From the NCBI GenBank assembly GCA_947305795.1, contig CAMZEK010000004.1:1-64000 (forward strand): a stretch of DNA of 64,000 nucleotides, written 5' to 3'. The notes below the pieces were generated by a model, which searched no databases, was not told the DNA's origin, and was given only the letters and a program-made list of their open reading frames with translations. The stretch comes from an uncultured Bacteroidales bacterium (GTDB lineage Bacteria > Bacteroidota > Bacteroidia > Bacteroidales > F082). The position numbers were made by a program, and so were the translations under genes. Below are positions 16,160-23,274 of this stretch, piece after piece. Each line of letters opens with the position of its first letter. The first letter of the stretch is position 1.

Positions 16160-17398
16160 TCATAGCAGCAACTCCTTCGGATAGCAAATAAAATGCTTCA
16201 CCACAGGCTGCGAGAGCACCGAAATATTGAGTTGGTCGGAGGCCTCGCTGATGTCCTTCATCGTGCCGTCTTTGTATAAGATGTTGATGGCAGGCTTCTT
16301 GGGGTGGTAGGCGTGGTTCGACGAAACGCCCTGCAATAGCGCGAAATCCGCTTCCTCCAAAGACCAACCATAGTATTTGGCAATCTTCTTCCGAATGTCC
16401 TTGATATAGTTTGGGTCAAATTCACTATCGCGCATCTCAATTCTGAATAAATGTCTGTCCGTCAACCTTCTGCAAAGCTCTGAGAGCACACGGTCTGGGT
16501 CGTTGCGCCAGGCTTTCACAGCGGTCATCACGTCATAGTCGTCTAATTGGCAGAACTGGTCGAGGACGAAATCGCGGTCGTGGCTGCCGTCAAAAGCGTT
16601 TTGATTTTTCAGGAAGAACGACAGGGCGGGGGTGGCAAACAAATCGCGTTCTTGGCTGAGCATCTTGGCGCGTTTCAGCACCTTCATCAGTGTGTATTCC
16701 GCGCTCAACACGGCCTTGTGCATATACACCTGCCAATACATGATGCGCCGCGCCACCAAGAAACTCTCCACGGAATAGATGCCCTTCGCCTCGATAGCCA
16801 ATTCATTGCCAACGACTTCCATCATCTCCAACAATCTTTCCGCGTTCACGCTGCCCTCGGCTACACCAGTGAAAAAACTATCGCGCTTCAGGTAATCGAT
16901 TCTGTCCACATCCAACTGACTGGAAATCAGTTTGCTGAGAAAACCTTTGGGGTGTTTTCCCGTGAAAATATCGATGGCCTTGTCTAAACGTCCGCCGTGG
17001 ATTTCGTTGAACTTTTGCATTACCATCAGCGAAAGTTCCTCGTGCGAGACGCCCTGCACGATGCTGTTTTCCAAAGTGTGCGAGAACGGCCCGTGACCGC
17101 TGTCGTGGAGCAAAATGGCCAACGAAGCTGCTTCAAGTTCCTCATCTGTAATCTCATAGCCTTTGCCGCGCAGCAGTTGGATGGCGCGCCGCATGAGGTG
17201 CATGGTGCCGAGGCTGTGGGCAAAACGGGTGTGGTTCGCGCCTGGATACACCAAATTGGTCATGCTGACCTGCTTGATGCGCCTAAGTCGTTGGAAATAA
17301 GGGTGTTCGATGATGTCGAAATGTAGTTCGTCGGGGATGCTGACGAAGCCGTAAATCGGGTCGTTGAAGATTTTCTTTTTGTTGGAGGAAGTGGCCAT
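16160..17398 (-). CDS. HD domain phosphohydrolase
   Basis: A 412-residue HD-superfamily protein of the dGTPase-like type. Signatures are FNDPIYGFVSIP, HPYFQRLRRIKQVSM, the metal-binding histidine in TRFAHSLGTMHL, and the HD pair in LLHDSGHGPFSHTLE, with a later DVDRIDYLKRD. These proteins hydrolyse (d)NTPs or related nucleotides, but the specificity here is unknown. The frame is open 7 codons upstream to a TTG, but that TTG is part of the promoter box, so the ATG at 17398 is used. Confidence 0.88.
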   Translation of the reverse strand: MATSSNKKKIFNDPIYGFVSIPDELHFDIIEHPYFQRLRRIKQVSMTNLVYPGANHTRFAHSLGTMHLMRRAIQLLRGKGYEITDEELEAASLAILLHDSGHGPFSHTLENSIVQGVSHEELSLMVMQKFNEIHGGRLDKAIDIFTGKHPKGFLSKLISSQLDVDRIDYLKRDSFFTGVAEGSVNAERLLEMMEVVGNELAIEAKGIYSVESFLVARRIMYWQVYMHKAVLSAEYTLMKVLKRAKMLSQERDLFATPALSFFLKNQNAFDGSHDRDFVLDQFCQLDDYDVMTAVKAWRNDPDRVLSELCRRLTDRHLFRIEMRDSEFDPNYIKDIRKKIAKYYGWSLEEADFALLQGVSSNHAYHPKKPAINILYKDGTMKDISEASDQLNISVLSQPVVKHFICYPKELLL

Positions 17399-17416
17399 GG
17401 ACTTCAAAATTTGCTG

Positions 17417-17424
17417 CAAAGGTA
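17417..17424 (-). promoter_or_regulatory. -7 promoter box of the HD-domain gene
   Basis: The minus strand reads TACCTTTG, 18 bases before the ATG at 17398. It excludes the upstream in-frame TTG as a start codon. Confidence 0.6.
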
Positions 17425-17439
17425 ATGCTTTTTTCCGTT

Positions 17440-17834
17440 CAATCAGCTTCCAGAAAGCATGTCATTTCTGCGGAAGGCTGTGCGAAGGCATTGAATCTAT
17501 GCTTTGAAAGCATATTATCGATTGTCGACCTCCAATAGATTCCCTCTATCGCACACGCCAACGTCGGAATGACATCGGAGGTCGGGTGATGTAGAGTGTA
17601 CAATCAGGCTTCCGAGAGCATGTCATTCCTGCGGAAGGCTATGCGAAGGCATGGAATCTGTGCTTTGAAAGCATATTATCGATTGTCGACCTCCAATAGA
17701 TTCCCTCTATCGCACACGCCAACGTCGGAATGACATCGGAGGTCGTGTAATGTAGAGTGTACAATCAGGCTTCAGAAAGCATGTCATTCCCACGCAGGCT
17801 TGTGTGTGAGCGGGAATCTATGCTTTCTGAAGCC
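17440..17834. repeat. tandem array of palindromic elements (161-bp unit, two copies plus a partial)
   Basis: This fills most of the 507-base gene-free stretch between the HD gene and porX. Unit A is 17440-17600 and unit B is 17601-17761; they differ at only a handful of positions. A third partial copy runs 17762-17834. Each full unit contains one forward core (ATGTCATT to GAATCT) and one inverted core (ATAGATTCCC to GGAATGACAT) separated by a linker with GATTGTCGACCTCC. No promoter or reading frame of interest was seen inside. The unit is much longer than a CRISPR repeat and has no unique spacers. Confidence 0.85.
17768..17834. repeat. 67-bp palindromic element, intergenic copy
   Basis: The perfect 15-base inverted repeat is GGCTTCAGAAAGCAT at 17768-17782 and ATGCTTTCTGAAGCC at 17820-17834. 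Between them lie GTCATTCC, 22 variable bases and GGAATCT. The element at 20171-20237 inside aroB has the same length, and its arms differ by one base. Confidence 0.85.
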
Positions 17835-17846
17835 AACCCAAAAAAG

Positions 17847-17878
17847 TTTATTCTAATAAAACAAAAATCTAATCTTTG
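17847..17878 (+). promoter_or_regulatory. probable porX promoter
   Basis: TTTA at 17847-17850, a 20-base spacer and AATCTTTG at 17871-17878 approximate the TTTG/TAnnTTTG pattern, with one mismatch in each element. The porX ATG lies 27 bases downstream. Confidence 0.4.
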
Positions 17879-17905
17879 CGTTACCTCAATATAAATACAC
17901 AAACT

Positions 17906-19462
17906 ATGGACAAAACGACAATCCTTTGGGCCGACGACGAGATAGATCTTCTCAAGCCCCATATCATGTTTCTGGAACAAAAAGGCTATGAGGTAGTTAC
18001 GGCCAATAGCGGCTCCGACGCCATTGACCTCGTGCGCCAGCGCCATTTCGACATTGTATTCCTTGACGAGCAGATGCCGGGCATTTCAGGCATCGAGGCG
18101 CTTGAAGTCATCAAGCGCGAATATCCCAACTTGCCTGTGGTAATGATTACCAAGAGCGAGGAGGAACGCATCATGGAGGATGCCATCGGTTCCAACATAG
18201 CGGATTACCTCATCAAGCCCGTTAATCCGAATCAGATTCTGCTTTCGCTGAAACGCAACCTCGAAAACAAGAAACTCCGCGACGAGAAATCAACGATGAG
18301 CTACCAGCAGGAGTTCCGCAAAATCAGCATGGACCTCAACAACAACCTCAACTTCGACGAGTGGGTTGATTTGTATAAGAACTTGGTGCGCTGGGAGTTG
18401 GAACTGCAAAAATCCACCGACGAAGGCATCAAGGGCATCCTCGCTGACCAAAAACAGGAGGCCAACACGCAATTTACACGCTACATCGAGCGAAACTACA
18501 TCGACTGGATTCAAGGTCGCTCGGAGAAGCCGGTCATGTCGCATACAGTGGTGCGCGACAAGGTGATTCCGCGCCTTGACGACAACGACAAACCGCTGTT
18601 TCTCATCGTGATAGACAATCTGCGCTACGATCAATGGAAGGCCATCCAACCGCTGATTGAGAACTACTTCCGCGTGGAGGCCGACGACATTTATTACAGC
18701 ATCCTGCCTACCACTACGCAATACGCCCGAAATTCCCTTTTCGCCGGACTGATGCCCCTTGAAATCCGCCGCCGCTATCCCAAATGGTGGGTTGATGAGG
18801 AGGACGAAGGCACCAAAAACCAGTTTGAGGGCGAACTCTTGGGTGAACAACTGAAGCGCTTCGGCAAGAACATCAAATACTCTTATAATAAGGTGTTGAA
18901 CTTGCAGGCAGGCAAGAAACTTTATGAGCAGATGGCCAACCTGATGCCTAACAAGCTGAATGTCATCGTTTACAACTTCGTCGATATGCTCTCGCATGCC
19001 CGTACGGAAATGGAAATCATTCGCGAACTGGCCGACGACGAGGAAGCCTATCGCTCACTGATGTACTCCTGGTTTGAGCATTCCAGCCTCTTCGACATGA
19101 TGCGCTTCATCGCCGAGAAGGGCTGCGATATGGTCATCACCACCGACCACGGATCGACCTACGTCGAAAAGCCCGTTCGTATCTTGGGCGATAGGGAAGT
19201 GAACACCAACCTGCGCTACAAGTATGGTAAAAACCTGAAATACAATCCGAAAGAGGTCTTCGAGGTAAAAGATCCCGAGAAGATTTTCCTGCCCAAGGTC
19301 AACTTGAGCACGACATACGTCTTCGCTGGTGAGAGCGACTTCTTCGCCTACCCGAACAACTACAACTATTACGTCAGTTATTACCGCAACACCTTCCAGC
19401 ACGGCGGCATATCGATGAGCGAAATGCTGATTCCCGTGACGCATTTGACTGCTAAGCGTTGA
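17906..19462 (+). CDS. porX: PorX, T9SS response regulator with PglZ/phosphatase domain
   Basis: A 518-residue protein with a CheY-like receiver (about 1-125) carrying the acidic pair ADDE and phospho-acceptor Asp54 in VFLDEQMPG, a helical linker, and a C-terminal PglZ/alkaline-phosphatase-like domain (about 200-515) with VIDNLRYDQW, LPTTTQYARNSLFAGLMP and ITTDHGSTYVEKP. In Porphyromonas gingivalis PorX controls T9SS and associated genes together with PorY and SigP. The open frame extends 10 codons upstream to a TTG inside the promoter; the ATG at 17906 is used. It is followed by tsaE, a common arrangement. Confidence 0.93.
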   Translation: MDKTTILWADDEIDLLKPHIMFLEQKGYEVVTANSGSDAIDLVRQRHFDIVFLDEQMPGISGIEALEVIKREYPNLPVVMITKSEEERIMEDAIGSNIADYLIKPVNPNQILLSLKRNLENKKLRDEKSTMSYQQEFRKISMDLNNNLNFDEWVDLYKNLVRWELELQKSTDEGIKGILADQKQEANTQFTRYIERNYIDWIQGRSEKPVMSHTVVRDKVIPRLDDNDKPLFLIVIDNLRYDQWKAIQPLIENYFRVEADDIYYSILPTTTQYARNSLFAGLMPLEIRRRYPKWWVDEEDEGTKNQFEGELLGEQLKRFGKNIKYSYNKVLNLQAGKKLYEQMANLMPNKLNVIVYNFVDMLSHARTEMEIIRELADDEEAYRSLMYSWFEHSSLFDMMRFIAEKGCDMVITTDHGSTYVEKPVRILGDREVNTNLRYKYGKNLKYNPKEVFEVKDPEKIFLPKVNLSTTYVFAGESDFFAYPNNYNYYVSYYRNTFQHGGISMSEMLIPVTHLTAKR

Positions 19463-19535
19463 TTCTTTGTCACAAAACTCTCAAAACCTACAAAACTTTT
19501 TTATTATTAGGGCGGCTTCGCAACCGCTTGTCATT

Positions 19536-19562
19536 GGAAAGCCGCCAGTTGGCAGGCTTTCC
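19536..19562 (+). terminator. hairpin after porX
   Basis: GGAAAGCCGCCA and TGGCAGGCTTTCC form a strong stem with a two-base loop, followed by TTCTTTT. It sits between the porX stop and the tsaE promoter box, consistent with a Rho-independent terminator. Its flanks (TCATTG / CAATGA) extend the inverted repeat, so it could also be a repeat element. Confidence 0.6.
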
Positions 19563-19616
19563 TTCTTTTACAATGATGTTTTGCAAGTTTTGCAGGTTTT
19601 GTGATGAAATAAAGGC

Positions 19617-19624
19617 TATCTTTG
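19617..19624 (+). promoter_or_regulatory. -7 promoter box of the tsaE-aroB-aroA operon
   Basis: TATCTTTG matches TAnnTTTG and ends 18 bases before the tsaE ATG at 19643. The in-frame TTG at 19622 overlaps the box and is therefore not the start. Confidence 0.6.
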
Positions 19625-19642
19625 CAGCGAAAATCACTTGCA

Positions 19643-20086
19643 ATGAAGGATAAACAGTTCAAAATAAACAATGTAGAAGTCCTAACCGAGGTTTCTGATT
19701 ACCTGATTTCCCTGCGTGAGGAGGCTGATGTCATAGCTTTTTATGGCTCAATGGGCGCAGGCAAGACTACGCTAATCAAGAATCTATGTCACCGAATGGG
19801 AGTCACCGATGAGGTGAACAGCCCGACATTTGCCATAGTCAACGAGTATGTTACTGAGGAAGGAGAATCGGTCTATCACTTTGATTTTTACCGTATTAAG
19901 AAACTGGAAGAAGCTTACGACATCGGCTACGAGAACTATTTCTACAGCGGCAATCTCTGCCTCATCGAGTGGCCTGAAATGATTGAACCTTTGCTGCCCG
20001 AAAAATACATCCGTGTGGAGATTCAGCACGGCGAGACGGACGATGAACGTGTGATTACCTGTAGATTGTTGACTGAAAATGAGTGA
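19643..20086 (+). CDS. tsaE: tRNA threonylcarbamoyladenosine ATPase TsaE
   Basis: A 147-residue P-loop ATPase that supports t6A37 modification of tRNAs with TsaB and TsaD. Seen: Walker A GSMGAGKTTLIK, the switch-like SPTFAIVNEY, and HFDFYRIKKLEEAYDIGYENYF ending in LCLIEWPE, which are all diagnostic. The start at 19643 is set by the promoter position. Its 3' end overlaps aroB by 8 bases. Confidence 0.93.
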   Translation: MKDKQFKINNVEVLTEVSDYLISLREEADVIAFYGSMGAGKTTLIKNLCHRMGVTDEVNSPTFAIVNEYVTEEGESVYHFDFYRIKKLEEAYDIGYENYFYSGNLCLIEWPEMIEPLLPEKYIRVEIQHGETDDERVITCRLLTENE

Positions 20087-21206
20087 TTTGAGAATAAACA
20101 TAAACCAAGCCTTAGAACGCATAGATTCCCGCCAGCGCACAGCCCAACCTTGGAATGACATGCATACTGAGGCTTCTGAAAGCATGTCATTCCAGCGTGG
20201 GATGGCGCGAGGCATGGAATCTATGCTTTCTGAAGCCTCTCAAGTTTTCATCTTGACTGATGAAAATGTAGCTCCATTCTGGTTGCCCGAAGTGGCCTAT
20301 TGGTTGCATTGCGATTCGGCAACCGACATCGTCATCAAGGCGGGAGAGCAGTACAAAAACCTGCAAACTGTTCAGCGGATTTGGAAAACCTTGATGAAGC
20401 ATCATGCCGACCGTAACGCCTTGCTAATCAATCTCGGAGGAGGTGTAATCACCGACTTGGGCGGTTTCGCGGCTTCGACTTACAAACGTGGCATCAAGTT
20501 TATCAATGTTCCAACAACTTTGCTTGCGATGGTGGATGCAGCGATAGGGGGGAAGACGGGCATCGATTTTGGCGGCGCGAAAAACCAACTCGGCACTTTC
20601 GCCGAAGCAGAGGAAGTGCGGATTAAGCCTGTCTTTCTGACGACACTGCCCGAAAGGGAACTGCGTTCAGGTTTGGCCGAAATGCTGAAATACGGCTTTA
20701 TCGCTGATTCCAAGTTGTTGGAAATCAATTTGGAAAACTATCAAGATTTCATTTTGCGTTGTGATGAAATCAAGCGTGAAATCGTGAAGCAAGACCCGAC
20801 CGAAAAAGGTTTGCGAAAGATTTTGAACTTCGGTCATACCATCGGTCATATCATTGAAAGTCATTGTCTTACAACGGATTATCCATTGCTTCATGGCGAG
20901 ACGGTGGCTTTGGGAATTTGCGCGGCTTTGTGGATTTCAGTGCAGCAATGCGGCCTTGATGAAAAAGTGCTGCAAACCTTTGAAAATCAGTTGCCTATGT
21001 TGCTTTCGGAGGCCGAAATTAGACTTTCAGATGCTGACATTGAATCGATTTTGACCTATCTCGTTCATGACAAGAAAAACAAAGGTGATAAACCGCAATT
21101 CGTTCTGCTTGAAGCGGTTGGGAAACCCGTTTGGGATGTGGATGTGAAGCCTGAAATAGTGAAACAATCTTTGTTATATATTATTAATAAGGTGTCGCGC
21201 CAATGA
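20079..21206 (+). CDS. aroB: 3-dehydroquinate synthase with an in-frame palindromic-repeat insertion
   Basis: A 375-residue NAD- and metal-dependent enzyme that cyclises DAHP to 3-dehydroquinate in the shikimate pathway. Core motifs are intact: NLGGGVITDLGGFAAS, NVPTTLLAMVDAAIGGKTGID, GGAKNQLGTF, LNFGHTIGHIIES and LLHGETVALG. Residues about 14-53 are foreign: they are encoded by two inverted copies of a palindromic element and sit between the N-terminal helix (ININQALE) and the first core strand (VFILTDENV). Removing about 40 codons restores a normal N-terminus. An ATG in the repeat (Met48) could be an alternative start, but the overlap with tsaE favours 20079. It overlaps aroA by ATGA. Confidence 0.94.
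   Translation: MSDLRININQALERIDSRQRTAQPWNDMHTEASESMSFQRGMARGMESMLSEASQVFILTDENVAPFWLPEVAYWLHCDSATDIVIKAGEQYKNLQTVQRIWKTLMKHHADRNALLINLGGGVITDLGGFAASTYKRGIKFINVPTTLLAMVDAAIGGKTGIDFGGAKNQLGTFAEAEEVRIKPVFLTTLPERELRSGLAEMLKYGFIADSKLLEINLENYQDFILRCDEIKREIVKQDPTEKGLRKILNFGHTIGHIIESHCLTTDYPLLHGETVALGICAALWISVQQCGLDEKVLQTFENQLPMLLSEAEIRLSDADIESILTYLVHDKKNKGDKPQFVLLEAVGKPVWDVDVKPEIVKQSLLYIINKVSRQ
20119..20237. repeat. two inverted palindromic elements inside aroB
   Basis: The first copy, reversed, is 20119-20164 (GCATAGATTCC, 22 bases, GGAATGACATGC). The second, forward, is 20171-20237, with arms GGCTTCTGAAAGCAT and ATGCTTTCTGAAGCC around ATGTCATTCC, 22 bases, GGAATCT. Together they add about 40 codons without a stop or frameshift. 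The forward copy is read as MSFQRG...ESM. The pair matches the forward/inverted composition of the 161-bp intergenic units. Confidence 0.88.
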
Positions 21207-22468
21207 AACTGTACTGCGACATCCAACTGCCCGCCAGTAAGAGCGAAAGCAACCGCGCTCTGATGATTGCAGCCTATGGTGGCTTTGCTCCTGATTTCCA
21301 AGATCTTTCTGATTCCAATGATACACTGGTTTTGGCTGAAGCCTTGAGCAGTTTGCCTTTTATGTCATTCCAGCGTGGCATTGTGCGTCGGAGGGAATCT
21401 ATAAAAGTCAGCTCTTCGATTATCAACATCGCCGATTGCGGCACGGCAGCGCGTTTCCTGACCACTTTTTTGGCTTGTCATTCAGGCCGTTGGCTCCTGA
21501 CGGGCACGGAGCGCATGAAACAGCGCCCTTTCAGGCCGTTGGTGGAAGCATTGAGAAATTTGGGAGCAAGCATACAATATGCTGAAAAAGAGGGCTTTCT
21601 GCCCTTGCAAATCGAAGGGAAAGCGATTTCGGGCGGTCAAGTCCGAATCGACATGAGCCAGAGCAGCCAGTTTGCATCGTCTTTGCTGTTGGCAGCTCCG
21701 ATGTGGGCGCAGGGCCTTGAAATAGAGTTGCTTGGCATTCTCAGTTCCTTGCCTTATTTGAACATGACTATGTCCATAATGCGGCATTTTGGAGCTGAGG
21801 TAGAGCAAAAAGGGCAAACAATTATTGTCAAACCAAAGCCATATCAACCGAGAAGGTTCAAGGTTTCTTCTGATTGGAGTGCAGCCTCGTATTGGTACGA
21901 AATGGCGGCGTTGAGCGAGGATTGTGAGATAAAACTGAGGTCCCTGAGCTTGTCGAAGGGCCGTCCTAATCTGCAAGGCGATGCTGTCGTTGCGGAATGG
22001 ATGAAGTCGTTGGGTGTCAATACTATAGAAACAGAAGATTCGCTCATTTTGCGGAAAATTCCCTTCGAAAAACGTCCTCTTTCCTTTGATTTTTCCGCCC
22101 ATCCCGACTTATTCCCGACGATGGCTGCCACCTGCGCCGGATTGCGACTTGAAGCGCGTTTTTCGGGTGTCGCCAACCTGGTTTTGAAAGAGTCTAATAG
22201 GGTGGAAGCAATGCAATCGGAGTTGGATAAAATCGGTGCAAAGTTTAAGTATCAATCTGAAAATGAGCTTGTTTTGATACCTTCAAGTCGGCTTCCTTTT
22301 TTCGAAAAGCCCTATCCTTTGCGTTTTGAATCGCATGGCGACCATCGCATTGTGATGGCGTTGGCGCCTTTGGCCGAAAAAGTCGGTAGCCTTATCTTTG
22401 ACCATCCTGAAGTGGTCGAAAAATCGTATCCTAACTTTTGGACAGAAGCCTCATTTTTGCTCTTCTAG
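21203..22468 (+). CDS. aroA: 3-phosphoshikimate 1-carboxyvinyltransferase with in-frame repeat insertions
   Basis: A 421-residue EPSP synthase that joins shikimate-3-phosphate and PEP. Family motifs are present: LPASKSESNRALMIA, ADCGTAARFLTTF, LTGTERMKQRPFRPLVEAL, SSQFASSLLLAAP, LQGD, DLFPTMAATCAG and HGDHRIVMALAPLA. Two segments look inserted: residues about 52-69 (repeat 21357-21407), just before the IADCGTA motif, and residues 246-254 (repeat 21939-21962), just before LQGD. Both keep the frame. The intact catalytic residues argue that the protein still works. It is the third gene of tsaE-aroB-aroA. Confidence 0.94.
   Translation: MKLYCDIQLPASKSESNRALMIAAYGGFAPDFQDLSDSNDTLVLAEALSSLPFMSFQRGIVRRRESIKVSSSIINIADCGTAARFLTTFLACHSGRWLLTGTERMKQRPFRPLVEALRNLGASIQYAEKEGFLPLQIEGKAISGGQVRIDMSQSSQFASSLLLAAPMWAQGLEIELLGILSSLPYLNMTMSIMRHFGAEVEQKGQTIIVKPKPYQPRRFKVSSDWSAASYWYEMAALSEDCEIKLRSLSLSKGRPNLQGDAVVAEWMKSLGVNTIETEDSLILRKIPFEKRPLSFDFSAHPDLFPTMAATCAGLRLEARFSGVANLVLKESNRVEAMQSELDKIGAKFKYQSENELVLIPSSRLPFFEKPYPLRFESHGDHRIVMALAPLAEKVGSLIFDHPEVVEKSYPNFWTEASFLLF
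21357..21407. repeat. palindromic element inside aroA
   Basis: Perfect 7-base arms CTTTTAT (21357-21363) and ATAAAAG (21401-21407) enclose GTCATTCC, 22 bases and GGAATCT. The total is 51 bases, exactly 17 codons. It is read as MSFQRGIVRRRES, the same frame as in aroB, although the outer arms differ from the aroB and intergenic copies. Confidence 0.85.
21939..21962. repeat. short CCTGAGCTTGTCGAAGG-type repeat inside aroA
   Basis: The 24 bases from 21939 contain CCCTGAGCTTGTCGAAGGG, a dispersed repeat word I know from many bacterial genomes, with near-complementary ends (GGTCCCT / AAGGGCC). It encodes RSLSLSKGR within aroA and is a different family from the MSFQRG element. Confidence 0.65.
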
Positions 22469-22498
22469 AAACGGGAAATGTGCAAAATCGAGGCTTTC

Positions 22499-22531
22499 TT
22501 TGCGGTTGAAAGAAAAAAATTCCTACTTTTG
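22499..22531 (+). promoter_or_regulatory. promoter of the Fe-S protein and first polysaccharide genes
   Basis: TTTG at 22499-22502, a 21-base spacer and TACTTTTG at 22524-22531 form the best complete -33/-7 pair in the window. The ATG at 22552 follows 20 bases later. Confidence 0.7.
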
Positions 22532-22551
22532 CAAAATTAATCAAAAAAGCC

Positions 22552-23274
22552 ATGACTGTTGAGCTGTTTGTTCCTTGTGTCATTGACCAGTTTTTCCCCG
22601 AAGTGGCGGTCAGCACCATGAAAGTGCTTGAACGTGCCGGGGTGGAAGTGGATTACAATCCAGAACAGACCTGTTGCGGAAGATTCGCTTATAATGCTGG
22701 TTTTGTGGAAGATGCAAAGGATTTGGGCGACAAGTTCCTCAACGATTTCTCGAATGCCAATCCGATGGTCGCACCTTCGGCGGCTTGTGTGCATTACATC
22801 AAGAAACGCTTCCCAGAATTGTTTTTCAATACTGCCAATCATTTGAATTTCAAGAAGATGGTAAACAATATCTTTGAGTTGACTGATTTCTTGGTGAACC
22901 AGTTGCATTTCGATGATTTTGGGGCTGAGTTTCCGCATAAGGTAACGTTTCACGATAGTTGCAGTGCCTTGCGTGGATTGGGTCTGGGCAAGGAAGCGCG
23001 ACAGCTTTTGTCGAAGGTTAAGGGTTTGGAACTCATTGAGATGAAGCAGACAGATATGTGTTGCGGCGCTGACCTTTCACTGCAAATGAACCACGAACCG
23101 ATTGCCGTGGGTATGGCCAACCATAAGGTCAAGAACGCATTGAATACTGGGGCGGAGTATATCGTCTCCACGGATATGACTTGCCTGATGCATCAAAAGT
23201 CATTCATCGAGAAAGAGGGACTTCCCATCAAAGTGATTCATATCGCGGATGTGCTTGCATCAGGTTGGGAATGA
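22552..23274 (+). CDS. LutA/YkgE-like (Fe-S)-binding protein
   Basis: A 240-residue protein with two CCG domains: PEQTCCGRFAYNAGF near residue 40 and QTDMCCGADLSLQ near residue 165, the cysteine motifs of the LutA/GlpC/HdrB family. LutA takes part in lactate oxidation with LutB and LutC, but neither is present next to it here. The stop overlaps the following acetyltransferase by ATGA, so it is cotranslated with polysaccharide genes. Its role in that context is unknown; an electron-transfer function is inferred from the family. Confidence 0.82.
   Translation: MTVELFVPCVIDQFFPEVAVSTMKVLERAGVEVDYNPEQTCCGRFAYNAGFVEDAKDLGDKFLNDFSNANPMVAPSAACVHYIKKRFPELFFNTANHLNFKKMVNNIFELTDFLVNQLHFDDFGAEFPHKVTFHDSCSALRGLGLGKEARQLLSKVKGLELIEMKQTDMCCGADLSLQMNHEPIAVGMANHKVKNALNTGAEYIVSTDMTCLMHQKSFIEKEGLPIKVIHIADVLASGWE

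Follow-up and report, generated by a model that had tools for sequence, protein, structure and literature searches.

Within a 64,000-nucleotide stretch of DNA from an uncultured Bacteroidales bacterium (F082; GenBank assembly GCA_947305795.1, contig CAMZEK010000004.1, positions 1 to 64,000 of the forward strand), here 'the window', the adjacent genes aroB and aroA both carry in-frame copies of a TGTC-tagged palindromic element. The reading favored here, which is viewed as probable though by a distance not assured, is of a palindrome resembling the repetitive extragenic palindromes (REPs) and the Rickettsia palindromic elements (RPEs), that is, one which is tolerated within protein loops and which then is rewritten in place, probably by template switching during replication. 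What is seen with this element is that it is dispersed, that it is inserted in frame at sites which relatives have empty, that its core lies in either orientation, that copies are compound as well as nested, and that arms match within species. A first-pass annotation of the window had proposed a mobile palindrome that spreads into enzymes, of which the in-frame insertion of a dispersed palindrome is supported; the description was nevertheless incomplete, as inversion, arm rewriting, nesting, and loss are invisible from one window.

The core pattern, i.e., ATGTCATTCC followed by 22 bases and then GGAATCT, is found at 20123-20161 (minus strand), 20184-20222 (plus), and 21362-21400 (plus), along with three copies within 17537-17819, and is matched nowhere in 100 shuffles of the window. 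The palindromic cores that had been placed within aroB and aroA thus are where they were said to be. The open reading frame (ORF) of aroB (20079..21206, plus strand; 3-dehydroquinate synthase, 375 aa; Pfam DHQ_synthase and DHQS_C) has, close to the N-terminus, two elements that form an inverted pair, with orthologs existing both with and without this pair. Element 1 (20107..20175, minus strand; core 20123-20161; 70.9 bits with the covariance model described below) has the reverse reading IDSRQRTAQPWND, and element 2 (20170..20238, plus strand; core 20184-20222; 72.9 bits) has the forward reading MSFQRGMARGMES, with its arm overlapping that of element 1. The inverted-repeat arms of the pair, 20109-20170 and 20175-20236, are 71% complementary, and the pair extends over codons ~11-53 instead of the ~14-53 first suggested.

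The ORF of aroA (21203..22468, plus strand; EPSP synthase, 421 aa; Pfam EPSP_synthase) holds one copy, at 21357..21407 (plus strand). As the first-pass annotation had described, this is an insert of 51 bases at codons 52-69 with 7-base arms. These arms, CTTTTAT/ATAAAAG, flank a 37-base core, GTCATTCC..GGAATCT (21364-21400), and the longer 41-nt core, ATGTC..CTAT, is found at 21362-21402. The forward reading is MSFQRGIVRRRES, with the reverse reading (IDSLRRTMPRWND) open as well. Both forward copies of the two genes share, as claimed, the frame MSFQRG..ES. The three coding copies were also said to share the same 22-base middle, which is so for length, i.e., 22 in each, but not for sequence.

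The plan of the element is that of a hairpin with an asymmetric internal loop, AT[GTC]AT...AT[CT]AT. The inner stem (5 bp) consists of ATTCC paired with GGAAT, within which are ~22 bases, and GTC lies opposite CT, with both unpaired. The outer stem opens with an AT:AT pairing, and further out the sequence varies by copy, with complementarity kept. ATGTCATTCC and GGAATCT are common to 18 of 18 aligned copies, these being the copies from which the covariance model was built (18 of the 19 exact copies in the source genome, with a tandem duplicate left out). Among these same copies, 81.9% of outer-helix cells are paired and 13 of 15 pairs have changed on both sides. The resulting covariation score is 0.511 versus 0.167 when shuffled, with none of 500 shuffles reaching 0.511 and with slid structures scoring at most 0.161. 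When folded as DNA and compared with shuffles, some copies fold far better (z -7.84 and -6.05, the latter being aroB element 2), the aroA copy folds modestly (z -2.16), and aroB element 1 folds no better than its shuffles (z -0.79). Inverted pairs of elements are frequent, with a spacing of ~50-90 nt.

The source genome is a 2.56-Mb draft of 88 contigs, 80% complete; the best match of the window's AroA in a named collection is the metagenome-assembled genome of uncultured Bacteroidia bacterium RUG14786, at 72% identity. The habitat is probably rumen or gut, judging by record titles. A whole-genome search for the pattern, as the first-pass annotation had suggested, found 19 exact cores (versus zero with a reversed-pattern control), and the covariance model found 43 matches at E<=1, of which 40 are at E<=3e-5. 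This is, that is, a dispersed palindrome. In a survey of 119 genomes, with up to 42 candidates scored per genome, 31 had matches at E<=1e-5, all of them in the window's genus (sampled with 72 genomes), and none of the 47 other sampled genera had a match at that threshold. The exact pattern was absent from viral_contigs, which served as a test of phage carriage, and no description of these elements in Bacteroidales was found in searches of open-licence PMC papers. As bears on the question of assembly error, insert states recur across many independently numbered genomes.

For 30 of the 43 matches the surroundings were inspected, with coding status judged by open frames without annotation. Eight copies are found inside long ORFs, and 22 are outside. 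The in-frame copies are distributed over six genes, i.e., aroB (two), aroA, and, outside of the window, those for a GH20 hexosaminidase, a PMT_2-type membrane protein, a radical SAM protein, and topoisomerase I (topA; two copies, in the linker that precedes the C-terminal segment). Forward copies encode peptides of the form MSF..ES and reverse copies IDS..ND. The 41-nt core is seen in 8 of 8 coding copies versus 11 of the 22 others (Fisher p 0.014), with core lengths among the remaining 11 copies outside long ORFs of 42 nt (nine), 44 nt (one), and 29 nt (one). With 41 nt, both AT ends of the core share one codon phase. The aroA genes of two relatives use other frames, VIP in G033 and CHS in G003 (Gnnn denotes sampled genomes and Lnnn single loci drawn from them). 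It had been suggested that the palindrome as a family is selected for a stop-free frame, which the copies do not show; of the 22 outside long ORFs, 13 have an open reverse coding frame and 17 an open forward one.

Of the 72 genomes of the genus, 63 gave an AroA match, one of which (G052) has an internal stop. Of 36 aroA loci fetched, site DNA was read in 23, making 24 orthologs with that of the window. The site is 'empty' in 10 of these, at 66 nt in eight and 63 nt in two, and 'filled' in 14, with additions of +48 nt in nine and of +39, +84, +96, +120, and +186 once each. All of these are multiples of three, which bears out the in-frame insertion that the first-pass annotation had proposed. 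The other 13, more distant, fetched loci have no such element in the protein alignment. That the aroA insert is an ordinary family loop was rejected, as the site in the nearest relatives is shorter. Compared with the Bacteroidales profile, however, solved EPSP synthases are longer by 17 residues at this position, and because of this the spot may be described as length tolerant within the family; the insert may form a surface loop.

Three further sites were parsed on translated frames, such that broken frames would be missed. At the radical SAM site (25 of 26 loci parsed), nine loci are empty (36 nt), 11 have a single reverse copy, three have a nested block, one has that nested block inverted, and one is compound. 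With topA (24 of 26 parsed), nine have a single reverse copy, two a single forward copy, two have pairs, one has a remnant, two have another domain, and eight are without. In GH20 (23 of 30 parsed) are six intact reverse copies, one decayed and one interrupted copy, and 15 loci without this element. A tree of AroA plus AroB (26 rows; of 23 inner branches, eight with good support and seven open; outgroup not one clade) has insert presence changing at least five times and orientation at least four times.

Opposite core orientations thus are seen at the same site in three genes, aroA, topA, and the radical SAM gene. Single cores in aroA are forward in five orthologs and reverse in five, and the inner arm CCTTTTAT/ATAAAAG is common to G000, where the core is forward, and to G016, G042, and G019, where it is reverse. 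When the 22-base middle of the forward G000 core is compared with 67 other cores, the one closest to it is that of G021 aroA, reversed (18/22), followed by those of G016 and G019 (17/22). The middles of G071 (forward) and G044 (reverse) agree at 17/22, tied with others. For 7 of 10 aroA cores, the best or joint-best match is itself an aroA core of the set compared. G029 (forward) and G042 (reverse) form a fully supported sister pair and have different arms. In topA, cores are forward in G044 and G064 and reverse in nine others, with like arms. At the radical SAM site, the 82-nt nested block of G024, once reverse-complemented, has an identity of 0.91 with its counterparts in G003, G071, and G028, versus 0.61-0.63 when compared directly; the blocks of G003 and G071 agree at 0.94.

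The arms, too, vary in a manner that is matched within species. Left and right arms of the aroA element pair at 10.20 of 12 positions within species versus 7.60 between species (p 0.00015), and those at the radical SAM site at 11.30 versus 9.23 (p 0.00025), with ten rows in each test, four compound aroA sites and the G070 radical SAM site (nearly the same as that of G021) being left out. Perfect 13-nt arms are found in G042 aroA and G064 topA, with the arms of relatives shorter. In G029, 16 nt of the right aroA arm are an exact inverted copy of the gene's own upstream codons, for the conserved NEALV and neighbors, which belong to the conserved family stretch D-T-x-V-L-x-x-A-L; a random control of 20,000 pairs of 30-mers gave no match of 12 nt or longer. 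Arms may also persist following loss. The short aroB N-terminus of G003, MRKVMDMLSKAS, ends in CTTTCTAAAGCCTCC, an arm that in G029 comes right after the second element, and this suggests a deletion of the element that left a scar. Repeated native codons, in addition, flank inserts in the radical SAM gene (L228-L244; QALE/QAFE..KALE) and in aroB (L088, L103; QASE..KAS). These perhaps reflect target duplication, although the sequence of the arms overlaps that of the target.

Among the known systems that come closest, CGTC REPs (Di Nocera et al. 2013, PMC3733652) are reported to often have CGTC becoming TGTC, to have a stem nearly always starting with complementary AT, to form inverted dimers, to be found inside ORFs of several species and across five phyla including Bacteroidetes, and apparently to have no dedicated transposase. 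The present element similarly has (A)TGTC-AT..AT-CT, inverted pairs, intragenic copies, and no linked transposase that could be found. As a CGTC REP is recognized by CGTC, TGTC, or CCTC beside its stem, it is pertinent that ATGTC precedes ATTCC in 18 of 18 copies. Unlike CGTC REPs, with stems of 8-9 bp and loops of 4-5, the inner stem here is of 5 bp around ~22 bases, there is a second, freely varying stem outside of the tag, and the tail is CT whereas theirs mostly is CCA. RPEs are reported in a review (PMC2229807) in 19 reading frames, are tolerated by the protein, as with a guanylate kinase that is active with its insert, and are 105-146 bp long in that review. The likeness that the first-pass annotation drew to RPEs is apt in that this palindrome, too, is dispersed and inserted in frame into conserved genes, with relatives having the site empty. 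A confinement of the kind to alphaproteobacteria is not supported, given the five phyla and the intragenic REPs of PMC3733652. The present elements differ from RPEs in being ~51-75 nt, in belonging to another phylum, and in showing cores of either orientation, along with rewritten arms, at a single orthologous site.

Template switching has been described as homogenizing arms and inverting spacers in yeast genes (PMC8604942), where spacer inversions within coding DNA amount to 2-5 substitutions with arms of >9 bp, and as creating and maintaining the stems of RNA genes (PMC8794818), where inverted loops are of ~4-8 nt. Patterns suggestive of arm homogenization, compensatory multi-base change, and spacer or loop inversion are present here as well. 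Those papers concern native inverted repeats with short spacers, whereas here the repeat is inserted, its spacers are 37-82 nt, and the genes are core genes.

As envisaged, a copy would land at a place in a gene where additional residues can be accommodated, with only in-frame events surviving. During replication, the polymerase would then switch template between arms, rewriting the hairpin in place. Such switching would make one arm the complement of the other, might carry codons of the host gene over into the far arm, and could invert the enclosed core. A flip should need no adjustment where both readings are stop-free, because the 41-nt core keeps its AT ends in one codon phase. The element later could be deleted, with arm codons left behind. 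Several points weigh against this reading. Its chief weakness is that the flipped spacers, at 37-82 nt with arms of ~7-13 bp, are longer than in the template-switch cases of the two papers just cited. In addition, no transposition, inversion, or protein has been observed, the 18 sequences on which covariation was scored are also those that supplied the structure, and the permutation and shuffle tests ignore kinship. Furthermore, for 3 of the 10 aroA cores the best match is none of the aroA cores of the set compared, with the first of these ranking eighth for G042 and second for G044 and G029; this fits replacement or new insertion equally well.

New insertion is what a different explanation would generalize. 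That is, the same tolerant spots might be entered repeatedly and independently, in either orientation, with arms that arrive with the element or match the target at insertion, and with no inversion in place. Viewed as unlikely though far from negligible, this would accord with the changes in insert presence over the tree (at least five), with GH20 and the second AroA site each holding several unrelated repeats at one place, and with the G042, G044, and G029 cores just mentioned. It does not sit well with the nested radical SAM block inverted whole at 0.91 identity, nor with the aroA cores of G000 and G021, which despite opposite orientation are mutual near neighbors with the same arms. Rewriting in place by template switching could, alternatively, be extended into something more ambitious, with the elements acting as invertible, self-repairing protein-loop cassettes that flip, nest, and exchange arms with host codons often enough to supply different loops in the same core enzyme in nearly every species, with no dedicated recombinase, and with flips occurring in living populations. 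We hold this to be rather doubtful.

Selection might instead maintain the hairpin because it works as a structure in RNA or DNA, for mRNA stability, termination, or replication, with its stem covarying by ordinary compensatory substitution. Strong covariation and some stable folds (z -6.05 and -7.84) are what this would lead one to expect; aroB element 1, folding like its shuffles (z -0.79), and the aroA copy, reaching only -2.16, are not. The genes moreover are intact in orthologs without the element, positions 17000-22600 have no Rfam match up to E 1, and an exact 16-nt inverted copy of host codons, as in G029 aroA, would be unexpected from single substitutions, such that selected structure seems improbable. 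Phase-variable invertons are flipped by a site-specific recombinase, and the presence of both orientations at the aroA, topA, and radical SAM sites is reminiscent of these. The sites of such an enzyme keep a fixed arm sequence, however, whereas here arms differ between copies and between sites, leaving recombinase-driven flipping very improbable indeed. For aroB alone, lastly, translation could begin at an internal Met46 or Met49 of element 2, with the pair then being leader and not protein. Both residues do fall inside the element, and PMC3733652 cautions on just this for N-terminal REPs. The upstream start nevertheless overlaps the tsaE stop, G024 begins MSDKLK like the insert-free G049 with its insert following, and G003 keeps MRKVMD upstream. 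An internal start thus is judged unlikely, and it would have no bearing on aroA, GH20, radical SAM, or topA.

Palindromes that code for protein are known chiefly in Rickettsia and Wolbachia. Here the EPSP synthase, radical SAM, and topoisomerase I sites are readable across ~10-25 related species as empty, forward, reverse, nested, and compound, such that the fate of a repeat within an essential gene becomes directly testable, as does the contribution of template switching to the building of protein sequence. One may, that is, be able to follow how new protein segments are made from repeats. These sites bear as well on how a hairpin inside a gene keeps matching arms, and they counsel caution, as a covarying stem does not by itself imply a selected RNA.

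Small palindromes, inverted pairs, and the presence of Y1 transposases in the genome also recall GTAG REPs and their REP-associated tyrosine transposases (RAYTs), though here the tag is TGTC and not GTAG. Mobilization by a RAYT was rejected, as neither of the two Y1 genes in the source genome has a core nearby and no element was found within ~1 kb of 22 Y1 genes (0 model matches at E<=0.1 in 51,549 bases). Y1 transposases are present in 51 of the 72 genus genomes, and a Y1 gene is found in 23 of 24 genomes with at least five element copies versus 28 of 48 others (Fisher p 0.0008, uncorrected for kinship). Element and Y1 copy numbers are uncorrelated (rho 0.12), and G059 has 14 element copies and no detected Y1 gene.

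The window holds eight copies in total, i.e., the three of aroB and aroA plus five that are clustered at 17443-17835. The latter consist of a degenerate copy at 17443..17514 (plus strand; 40.3 bits), copies at 17521..17589 (minus; 70.3 bits) and 17606..17675 (plus; 53.5 bits), a tandem duplicate of 17521-17589 at 17682..17750 (minus; 68.8 bits), and a copy with perfect 15-bp arms at 17767..17835 (plus; 76.7 bits). A 161-nt tandem duplication, 17437-17597 and 17598-17758 (93% identical), holds two facing elements.

Elements nested in the loop of another recur across genes, in aroA at L101 (G003) and L103 (G024) and in the radical SAM gene at L236, L238, L240, and L244, as if such a composite had moved as a unit. 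There also is, at 21939..21962 (plus strand) of aroA, a second palindrome (GGTCCCTGAGCTTGTCGAAGGGCC, LSLSKGR) that is unrelated to the element, with other repeats at the same place in relatives. AroA residues ~248-260 (L082-L117) there have, depending on species, the unrelated in-frame repeats LSLSKGR, VPELVEGP, GPSTSSG, or a nested HRYxPxxxHVMPTDEG, and in some species none. The GH20 loop between RKSLP and CG.IRDW (L118-L147) in other species similarly carries in-frame PLKGGQGG-type and tandem SQLSTLNSQL-type repeats, and the PMT-type protein (L064, residues ~125-150) has RPFDRLRD..VVEPVE beside its element, resembling another in-frame palindrome. G015, G017, G032, G035, G039, G053, and G068, as well as some genomes of other families, have a related family that is symmetric and has an inner stem that varies, GTCATTCCGAG-[variable hairpin]-CGAGGAATCT. 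The TopA linkers of G031 (L270) and G021 (L273), finally, contain a segment with the pattern CPFHDDKSGTFNV..FKCFSCGKGGD, which presumably recalls the zinc-binding domain of DnaG primase.

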